The notes under the pieces: model-generated | What the model was told of the DNA's origin: nothing | Database searches by the model: none | The model's input: only the letters and a program-made list of their open reading frames with translations | Source: a virus | Virus record (IMG/VR): IMGVR_UViG_3300027816_000069 | Span: 1 to 64,000 of that record | Reading direction: 5' to 3' (one strand) | DNA length: 64,000 nt | Shown: positions 47,869 to 49,908 of the stretch, in pieces | How positions within the stretch are numbered: position 1 is the first letter of the stretch | How the letters are laid out: each line of letters begins with the position of its first letter | Position numbers and translations under genes: made by a program

Positions 47869-47887
47869 GCGATTAAAGGAGAGTTTT

Positions 47888-48046
47888 ATGTTTCATGGCG
47901 AGTATGAGAATTATGAAGATATTGTAAAAGACTCAGACGAACTCTTTTCGTATGATGATGACCACAGTTATGAAACTAATCTCTACGATGAAAGAGAATG
48001 GGACAATTACTATCATATTTTGGCCGATGAAATAGTGGAAGAATAA
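47888..48046 (+). CDS. Acidic small protein
   Basis: 52 aa from ATG 47888 (AAAGGAGAGTTTT upstream). About 40 percent Asp and Glu, with many Tyr (MFHGEYENYEDIVKDSDELF onward). Last native gene before the GC-rich island. Confidence 0.7.
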   Translation: MFHGEYENYEDIVKDSDELFSYDDDHSYETNLYDEREWDNYYHILADEIVEE

Positions 48047-48130
48047 CACTCAGGACCAGGAGCGGCTCGCAGCCGCAGGAGGACGACATGATTTCAGACG
48101 TTGACGCGAGTCCGCTGCATCGTCTTGGTT
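48047..48130 (+). repeat. Half attC-like site A at the island's left edge
   Basis: The 3' half CCGCTG-C-ATCG then GTT (48112-48130) matches the other sites. The 5' half is replaced by a GCGGCT-CGC-AGCCGC hairpin and an AGGAGG ribosome site. Confidence 0.45.
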
Positions 48131-48459
48131 CGCAGAAGCAAAGGGGTAGCGAAATGCCGGTGTCTTGGAAGTTGGTAGAGAACTGCTCTGGTAAGGTTTT
48201 GCGGCGGTCAAAGAACCGCGTATTTGTTGCGGGCTGGCGTCGCGTCATTGGGGCAACGGTTGTGCCGGCGTGCATTCTCCCGTCAGTGGGCCAGCACGTG
48301 CGGTTCGGTTCTTTCGATTGGGAGGTAGTGCGTGTTGAGCAAGTTGAGTGCGACTACGACCCTTCTTATCTGTACCGCGTCGATCTTGTGATCCGCGACG
48401 AGAGCGGAAAGCCAGTAAACTTCGCGAGCGGAATATCAAACCTCTGCCTTGACGGCTGA
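48088..48459 (+). CDS. Cassette ORF 1
   Basis: 123 aa from ATG 48088, which has an excellent AGGAGGACGAC site. That start lies inside site A; under a cassette model the native start would be ATG 48154 (AAAGGGG upstream, MPVSWKLVENCSGK). Beta-rich middle (VVRVEQVECDYDPSYLYRVD). The stop codon begins the next attC-like site (TGAGAAC). No family recognised. Confidence 0.65.
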   Translation: MISDVDASPLHRLGSQKQRGSEMPVSWKLVENCSGKVLRRSKNRVFVAGWRRVIGATVVPACILPSVGQHVRFGSFDWEVVRVEQVECDYDPSYLYRVDLVIRDESGKPVNFASGISNLCLDG

Positions 48460-48505
48460 GAACGCCAGCGATCAGCGGCTCGTCCGCTGCGTCGCGTGGT
48501 TATGG
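48457..48505 (+). repeat. attC-like site B
   Basis: TGAGAAC opens the site, AGCGAT-CAGCGG pairs with CCGCTG-C-GTCGC (one G-T pair, one extrahelical C), and GTTATGG closes it. Loop of five bases. Confidence 0.55.
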
Positions 48506-48515
48506 AGACACACAC

Positions 48516-48683
48516 ATGACAATCACTCAAATAATCGGCGTTGCACTGACCTCATCCCCATTTGCGGGCGTTGCGGTGTTGTGCCACATGCACGGCGGCT
48601 GGCCCGCCGTTGCTGTAGTGTTTGGGGCGACCGGAGCCGTTGTTGCTGTTATCGCACTTGGGTGCCGACTTCTGGTTACATAA
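48516..48683 (+). CDS. Cassette ORF 2, small membrane protein
   Basis: 55 aa from ATG 48516 (GGAG eight bases upstream). Two hydrophobic segments (IIGVALTSSPFAGVAVLC and AVAVVFGATGAVVAVIALG) suggest a double-spanning membrane protein. The stop overlaps site C. Confidence 0.62.
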   Translation: MTITQIIGVALTSSPFAGVAVLCHMHGGWPAVAVVFGATGAVVAVIALGCRLLVT

Positions 48684-48765
48684 CGGCTGCGATCAGCGGC
48701 ATCGAACACAGGAGCGACCATGACGAAAGAGGTAGATGAGATGTCCGCTGCATCGCGTGGTTCTG
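48681..48765 (+). repeat. attC-like site C with long loop
   Basis: TAAC, TGCGAT-CAGCGG and CCGCTG-C-ATCGC, GTT. The paired arms are separated by about 45 nt that contain AGGAGCGACC and ATG 48720, the likely start of ORF 3. Confidence 0.55.
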
Positions 48766-49019
48766 CGGTGATGGCCTACGCCGTGATTGACGACGAGGGC
48801 GTGCAGCACTCGCTGTGGTTTCTGGAAAAGGACGCGACGAGCGAGGCCGCGATGGTCGGTGGGACTGTGGTGCGGCTTGGCCACCCCACGCTCACCGACG
48901 AGGAGCGGGAGGCGTTGGAGTACGGCATTAGGCAAGCCGACGAATACGACAGAGTAGGGCTTGAAGACGCAAAGCGCGCCGCAATTGTGTTTCGCGGCCT
49001 GCTGGAACGACTAGGCTGA
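48720..49019 (+). CDS. Cassette ORF 3
   Basis: 99 aa from ATG 48720 behind AGGAG, or 82 aa from ATG 48771 after the cassette joint. The second half contains LTDEEREALE and ends FRGLLERLG, shared with ORF 4, so the two are paralogs. Function unknown. Confidence 0.65.
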   Translation: MTKEVDEMSAASRGSAVMAYAVIDDEGVQHSLWFLEKDATSEAAMVGGTVVRLGHPTLTDEEREALEYGIRQADEYDRVGLEDAKRAAIVFRGLLERLG

Positions 49020-49066
49020 GAACGCTTGCGATCTGCGGCGCAGTCCGCAGCATCGCGTGGTTCTCA
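49017..49066 (+). repeat. attC-like site D
   Basis: The best-formed site. TGAGAAC and GTTCTCA are fully complementary, and TGCGAT-CTGCGG pairs with CCGCAG-C-ATCGC, with one extrahelical C. The A/T change in the inner helix (CAGCGG to CTGCGG) is matched by CCGCTG to CCGCAG, a compensated pair. Confidence 0.6.
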
Positions 49067-49083
49067 CAGGCATGGAGACAGAC

Positions 49084-49311
49084 ATGAGGCCGACACCAAT
49101 CGGACGGTTTGCTGACACGCCCTCATACGAGGAGTTGCAGCGAGAGGTTGCCCGCCTGCGGCTCACCGACGAGGAGCGGGAGGCGATTGAGCGGCTGTGC
49201 GAGGCCGCCAATGACATAATCTACGATGACAGGACGGCCGGTGGAAGCCACTGGCAAGAGGACGAGGCGGCGGTTGCTGTGGCTCGCGGCCTGCTGGAGC
49301 GGACGAAGTGA
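49084..49311 (+). CDS. Cassette ORF 4
   Basis: 75 aa from ATG 49084 (GGAGACAGAC upstream). LTDEEREAIERL near residue 27 and a VARGLLERTK end mark it as a paralog of ORF 3. Its stop begins TGAGAAC, but no full attC-like site follows, so the array looks cut off here. Confidence 0.65.
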   Translation: MRPTPIGRFADTPSYEELQREVARLRLTDEEREAIERLCEAANDIIYDDRTAGGSHWQEDEAAVAVARGLLERTK

Positions 49312-49323
49312 GAACTCTTCTTC

Positions 49324-49411
49324 ACGGATGCAACTTGGTGGGACAAGTATCTATTATAGGCAACTAGCCTTTCTTATTCCTTTCTTATACGTTCGAATCG
49401 TATCATCCGTG
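49324..49411 (+). tRNA. Degenerate tRNA-like sequence
   Basis: Acceptor ACGGATG/CATCCGT, D-arm ACTT/AAGT and T-arm ATACG-TTCGAAT-CGTAT are intact. No regular anticodon arm can be drawn. An 11-nt tandem duplication (CCTTTCTTATT, CCTTTCTTATA; 49368-49389) sits before the T-arm. Probably a decayed tRNA at the right border of the cassette island. Confidence 0.5.
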
Positions 49412-49416
49412 CTGTT

Positions 49417-49908
49417 ATGAATATACTACATCAGAAACTAGAAGATCATCGAGTTACTCCAGACGGCCAATATATTAAGGGTTGTAGCCATACTACAAAA
49501 GTGCTAAATCATAAGCACAGAAATTCTATAATCATAAAGGCCATTTGTGATTTGCGTAAGATAACTGATGAGTTTGATAGTATAGCCTGCTGTGGTATTA
49601 GTGGTTTGATGGTTGTTCCACAAATTGCTGAACTGCTGAATAAACATATTATTGTTATTCGTAAGAAAAACGAGGAATGTTATTCAAATTTTTTTATGGA
49701 AGGTGTTACTCCTTGGAGGTACATAATAATTGACGACCTTATTTGTTCTGGCAATACTTTTAGGCATATCACAAGCACTATCTCAAATGACTACCGCAAG
49801 GCTCAGTGTGTAGGACTCTATTGCTATATGCCAGAAGAATGTTCATATAATAAAGATAATATTAAAGAATTTGAACGAAGATTCCGTACTCAACTATTAA
49901 ACGTCTAA
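49417..49908 (+). CDS. Phosphoribosyltransferase-like protein
   Basis: 163 aa. The PRPP-binding loop IIIDDLICSGNTF (about residues 104-116) is the type I PRTase signature, with a preceding GISGLMVVPQIAELL segment typical of the fold. Fit to a specific substrate (adenine, orotate, ComF-type) cannot be judged. The ATG follows the tRNA-like sequence by five bases without a ribosome site. Confidence 0.82.
   Translation: MNILHQKLEDHRVTPDGQYIKGCSHTTKVLNHKHRNSIIIKAICDLRKITDEFDSIACCGISGLMVVPQIAELLNKHIIVIRKKNEECYSNFFMEGVTPWRYIIIDDLICSGNTFRHITSTISNDYRKAQCVGLYCYMPEECSYNKDNIKEFERRFRTQLLNV

Follow-up and report, generated by a model that had tools for sequence, protein, structure and literature searches.

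The 64,000-nt window analysed here (the whole stretch of DNA, positions 1 to 64,000 of virus record IMGVR_UViG_3300027816_000069) carries a small island that is very probably a CALIN-type array, that is, a set of integron cassettes without an integrase, whose four cassettes would have been joined by a host integrase acting in trans. The full record consists of 122,350 bp and contains a terminase large subunit, a tRNA block, and a weak match to a major head protein; the host genome of the island is a large tailed phage. In the sequence features that were tested, the array has the character of a CALIN. The lack of an integrase, noted earlier for the window, was extended by a TIGR02249 (intI) search to the whole 122-kb record, which gave no match, the record being possibly incomplete. 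A complete integron, with intI and attI beside the array, was not found; intI is absent from the record. A preliminary description of this DNA had interpreted the island as integron-type cassettes captured by a phage. The capture stands, with an array that has no integron integrase in the record and is missing from relatives, but the assumed polarity does not, as the hairpin leads its gene, and the suggested planctomycete source is not supported.

The cassette array and its attC sites

The four small ORFs and the palindromes were found at the coordinates previously assigned to them, and the G+C content of 0.58 at 48001–49000 was the top value of the 64-kb window, in agreement with the GC-rich island reported. 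For the covariance model R1, 40 sites taken from other viral contigs were used, with the window sites left out. R1 retrieved exactly sites B, C, and D (E values of 1e-18 to 4e-14 for the 64-kb window) and reported no further site over the 64 kb, which bears out the attC character proposed for the palindromes. Since the model was built without the window sites, a chance origin of the palindromes could be excluded. The features of the island and its flanks are listed below.

47879–48046, plus strand: left phage flank, a small acidic ORF whose TAA stop is the left joint; kept in relatives directly before the tRNA-like gene
48047–49314, no strand assigned: inserted four-cassette attC array of 1,268 bp; absent in 62 related loci, with the flanks joined directly in L225 and others
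48047–48130, minus strand: site A, an attC variant whose loop is long and whose outer arms have diverged; core 95% identical to a framed L009 site over 61 nt
48088–48459, plus strand: cassette 1 gene, up to 123 aa, starting in the site A loop; first part of the cassette also in other contigs
48457–48506, minus strand: site B, attC with a short loop; R1 68.3 bits
48516–48683, plus strand: cassette 2 gene, 55 aa, hydrophobic; ends form a GTTATG/CATAAC pair
48680–48765, minus strand: site C, attC with a long loop containing the Shine-Dalgarno sequence and ATG of ORF3; R1 56.3 bits
48720–49019, plus strand: cassette 3 gene, 99 aa, with its ATG inside the site C loop; copies in L255 and L256
49016–49067, minus strand: site D, attC with a short loop and a compensated arm pair T-A; R1 71.7 bits, single-stranded DNA fold z = -3.4
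49084–49311, plus strand: cassette 4 gene, 75 aa; ends form a GTTCTCAC/GTGAGAAC pair
49315–49415, plus strand: right phage flank, CTCTTCTTC spacer and tRNA-like gene; kept in relatives

Three strong R1 matches within 620 bp, together with the variant site A, make up an attC cluster. The earlier count of three full palindromes was exact for sites B, C, and D, and beyond that count a fourth, long-loop site is present at the left edge. This site A received a weak R1 score of 6 bits; its core matches a site of the viral contig L009 in which the AAC...GTT frame is complete, and its loop contains a Shine-Dalgarno sequence and the ATG of ORF1 (48088). The AAC and GTT frames could be placed at 48461–48463 and 48499–48501 for site B, 48682–48684 and 48760–48762 for site C, and 49021–49023 and 49060–49062 for site D. 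The stop codons TGA, TAA, and TGA overlap or abut the AAC of the next full site, as had been pointed out before, and the cassette 4 gene has no attC site after it. Folding as single-stranded DNA gave z values of -3.4 for site D, -2.3 for site B, and only -0.9 for the long-loop site C. The compensated base-pair change claimed for site D is real, because sites B and C carry A...T and site D carries T...A at the same arm pair; over 177 non-redundant sites, this pair was A-T in 146, T-A in 25, and mismatched in 6. The Rfam scan of the island region returned tRNAs and chance matches only.

Single cassettes of the window are shared with other viral contigs, where they stand beside different cassettes. 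The first 124 nt of cassette 1 were 91–93% identical in L019, L021, and L265, and cassette 2 was 94.6% identical in L020, L059, and L096, adjoining other cassettes there. Cassette 3 was 95–97% identical over 215 nt in L255 and L256, where the site C loop and its gene recur together behind other genes, and cassette 4 was 95% identical over 172 nt in L085. The cassette 4 protein is of the LTDEERE/GLLER type, like the cassette 3 protein. Pfam and PHROGs assigned no function to the four cassette proteins of the window, and nothing among GenBank phages and plasmids matched the island or cassette 4 in a meaningful way.

The insertion point in related phages

Relatives were gathered by a scan with the neighbouring DUF932 protein, which yielded 62 loci, some on contigs of up to 238 kb. 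In line with the acquisition proposed earlier, comparison with these related phage genomes revealed that the array was missing from all 62 loci; no R1 site was present in them, and 40 whole records searched from this set had none either. L225 is one of the relatives in which the tRNA-like gene comes immediately after the small acidic ORF, with no array between. The phage joints read GAATAA|C on the left and GAGAA|CTCTTCTTC on the right, and the TTCTTC tract agrees with the spacer of the relatives. The empty site was reconstructed as GAATAACTCTTCTTC, the other strand of which, GAAGAG|TTATTC, presents a plain G|TT core; this reconstruction is conjectural because an exactly matching sequence occurs in no relative. 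Judged from these sequences, the array is an insertion into the phage genome.

An assembly chimera, in which a piece of a bacterial integron was joined to a phage contig, is a highly improbable source of this arrangement. Arrays are indeed frequently located at the ends of contigs, the places at which assemblies break, but both flanks of the present array are collinear with phage relatives, and many of the other arrays lie in the interior of long phage contigs, one of them near 149 kb in a contig of 205 kb. Moreover, a second IMG/VR contig, L090, matches over 9,987 bp at 100%, perhaps not as an independent sample.

The tRNA-like RNA of the right flank (49323–49415) possesses an acceptor stem, a D arm, and a T arm, and in place of the anticodon arm, which it lacks, has a pyrimidine-rich linker of 25–42 nt. 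It was called by neither ARAGORN nor Rfam. The relatives L175–L236 contain 35 distinct versions, in which all 17 pairs were kept in 35/35 (one pair in 34/35), with many two-sided changes. A phosphoribosyltransferase-like phage protein with a weak Pfam match (PRTase-CE) is encoded at 49417–49908 and is kept beside the island site in relatives. The otherwise AT-rich phage has, between 37.9 and 51.1 kb, some ten GC-rich palindromic repeats in intergenic positions, which include TGCCA..TGGCA and GGCCGGCC parts; related copies occur in relatives.

Cassette polarity and the mode of joining

In the free circle of an integron cassette its two core ends meet, which is why they are complementary to each other. 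Among 56 two-site cassettes of the family, the ends of the same cassette had a mean of 3.43 complementary bases beyond the core versus 1.57 in random pairs (p 2e-4, the lowest value that the test can give), and ends meeting at one site had 1.75. Core-end complementarity was therefore evident in the pooled test, and within the window it was clear for cassettes 2 and 4 only, being absent or poor for cassettes 1 and 3. Such ends bear on a reading of the palindromes as host chromosomal repeats or small inverted-end transposons with no relation to integrons. The GTTx...xAAC inverted ends that bound each gene do resemble those of a small transposon, and hardly any sequenced genome contains the exact hairpin; however, the end sequences are cassette-specific and pair within their own cassette, no transposase is present, and the same hairpin design stands beside intI above cut-off in Cyanobiaceae, so that this reading has only a very slight chance of being correct.

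The attC sites had initially been taken to follow their genes, but array edges, complementary cassette ends, long-loop linkage, and the phage junctions place the hairpin before the gene. Among 125 sites with both flanks, 45 had a pairing core on the downstream side alone, 11 on the upstream side alone, 57 on each side, and 12 on neither; the array of the window opens with a hairpin and closes without one. The long-loop class travels with the downstream gene in 29/29 pairs at 95% identity and with the upstream gene in 5/13. The longest ORF lies on the leader strand in 113 of 122 cassettes, in most of which the stop codon is no more than 10 bp away from the closing AAC, and an ATG is located inside 40 of 56 long loops.

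The direction of attC could be set from Cyanobiaceae intI loci, where the hairpins (extra left-arm base, inner stem of about 6 bp) lie on the 3' side of intI and point away from it, as was the case for every one of the ten sites found across eight loci. The window sites fit this hairpin design, with its extra unpaired left-arm base and its direction away from intI, on the minus strand only, and the genes are therefore antisense to attC. The G|TT joint named previously thus holds on the minus strand and fails on the gene strand, where the crossover is AA|C. An attC site 3' of its gene, as in a canonical sense cassette, was not found. Taken together, the hairpin precedes its gene, with a unit made up of hairpin first and gene second.

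Canonical sense cassettes (gene, then attC, with G|TT on the gene strand), of which the last attC was deleted and site A is a phage joint only, would also account for the stop codons that abut the following site, and the genes shared downstream of different short-loop hairpins fit a G|TT crossover on the gene strand. This arrangement is quite improbable in view of the 45 to 11 preference of array edges for leader hairpins, the movement of long loops with the downstream gene, the phage spacer that resumes straight after GAGAA|C, and the attC direction set by intI, which is that of the minus strand.

At short-loop sites, the arm base, loop, and spacers matched either neighbour no better than background. 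Linkage could not assign these hairpins to the upstream or to the downstream neighbour, and the question was settled by the array-edge test. There is also a gene that occurs with differing hairpins, both before and after it. Since short-loop hairpins are unlinked to either neighbour, not every exchange took place at the AAC/GTT cores; the conserved arms must also have been places of exchange, for which homologous recombination or strand annealing is the simplest mechanism. It is unlikely that the palindromes are recombination linkers altogether, with homologous recombination or single-strand annealing at the 40-bp hairpins and no integrase today. Breakpoints inside the conserved arms, identical long-loop cassettes with different outer spacers (L255, L256, and the window), the short-loop features unlinked to both neighbours, and a RecE-like exonuclease in one array-bearing contig would fit such linkers, but the cassette-specific complementary ends, the AA|C joints in a phage without prior homology, and the presence beside intI in Cyanobium sp. 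FGCU52 are left unexplained. Recombination of this type may act in addition to an integrase.

In the preferred reading, of cassettes joined by an integrase in trans, an integron-bearing host would supply the integrase, which would act on folded single-stranded attC. The cassettes would thereby have been joined to a G|TT core that the phage offered by chance, minus-strand GAAGAG|TTATTC, made up of the TAA stop of a phage ORF plus C. The array may have come whole or grown in place. The unit structure is C-hairpin-GTT-gene-stop-AA, an order by which the genes are antisense to attC, and with a Shine-Dalgarno sequence and ATG in the long attC loop a cassette would carry its own translation start wherever it landed. 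The four cassette genes read in the same direction as their neighbours and are probably transcribed together with them.

The shared cassettes and their relation to known integrons

The palindrome was found in at least 119 viral-contig stretches, and three further patterns raised the family to about 150 IMG/VR contigs; this count excludes duplicates, L090 as a copy of the window itself, and four matches due to chance. L068, L103, L116, and L117, in which the AAC/GTT frame is missing, were left out of the count. Nearly all stretches have AAC before and GTT after the palindrome, with different genes on each side. The 49 viral contigs tested had 1–13 sites each, usually in one cluster, and no intI above the family cut-off (two weak matches, 22.9 and 21.6 bits). 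Large ORFs sampled from eight array contigs belonged to differing terminase, portal, head, and protease families; thus, several phage lineages carry the attC family. These lineages are unrelated to each other, and the same cassettes recur in them as units in differing orders, in the manner of integron cassettes. A similar upstream end (GAGCGAGACAGCC or close) before the first hairpin, followed by different cassettes, was seen in L013, L018, L025, L032, L049, L054, L063, L077, L078, L087, and L119; contigs sharing it appear to hold a resident site with variable content.

Among 50 representative cassette proteins of the family, PADLOC gave no match, and one clear Mom-like DNA modification protein was recognized (PHROG 1384, 1.6e-38; L114:929–1426, minus strand; five members in the cluster), whose cassette-borne gene may serve in anti-restriction. 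Most cassettes of the family appear to be without assignable function.

The exact-pattern scan of 84,980 species genomes produced a single match, to Cyanobium sp. FGCU52, which gives no support to the planctomycete source. The R1-type site of FGCU52 lies 2.8 kb from a true intI; this site and its neighbours show the hairpin-first layout, with start codons in two loops, and a mazEF-like cassette (named by eye) in the same array has the usual sense orientation. FGCU52 and the viral family share the same attC sequence family and one cassette gene. A looser pattern gave four more matches among 399 genomes of the FGCU52 order, which were chance-like. An intI above the NCBIfam cut-off was present in 60 of 300 Cyanobiaceae genomes (e.g., L143–L154 and L137), with arrays 3' of intI. 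Cyanobacterial hosts for the array phages were not supported, as no psbA was found in the 50 phage records searched and the terminase relatives were too distant to be informative. That only one of 84,980 genomes matched may be due to a bacterium not yet sequenced or to arrays that are not recovered in assemblies.

In canonical mobile and Vibrio integrons, attC comes after the gene of its cassette. The island is like these cassettes in its AAC...GTT cores, imperfect hairpin with an extra arm base, variable loop, and cassette-specific end pairing, and unlike them in that attC stands before the gene. Insertion of attC can also take place at secondary non-attI G|TT sites, called attG; the island shares the short G|TT core and the lack of attI, and differs in its phage genome target and four-cassette insert. 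The sedentary chromosomal integrons of Cyanobiaceae (intI by TIGR02249) have the same hairpin design, but they possess intI, the attC of strains other than FGCU52 differ, and the exact family is nearly absent from them. In phages, 17 attC clusters without integrase (CALINs) have been reported, with IntI1 activity on five of six sites (Qi et al. 2023, PMC9892861). The present array resembles those CALINs as a small attC array without intI in a phage, with mostly unknown genes. The CALINs of Qi et al. were single cases in 21 phages, whereas here one family with shared cassettes extends over ~150 contigs and several lineages, and attC leads the gene, with start codons in attC loops. Leader-attC cassettes, or a cassette pool common to many phages, were not described in the part of the literature searched. 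Integrase-free attC clusters in phages are already known, and the leader layout and shared pool are, as far as could be found, apparently new.

Integron cassettes in phages have so far been regarded as occasional passengers. As the family, with its interchangeable cassettes, is spread over several unrelated lineages of phages and is missing from nearly every sequenced bacterium, phages are a plausible main carrier of the cassette pool. With somewhat less than even confidence, we propose that a pool of leader-attC cassettes, many with the start codon of the gene in the hairpin, circulates among unrelated phages; it would be moved by host integrases and phage recombination, would now be mainly viral, and would serve as a shared store of accessory genes including the Mom-like gene. 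The leader-attC layout inverts the usual cassette plan and suggests cassettes with their own translation start inside the recombination site, and phages are a plausible route for cassettes between hosts.
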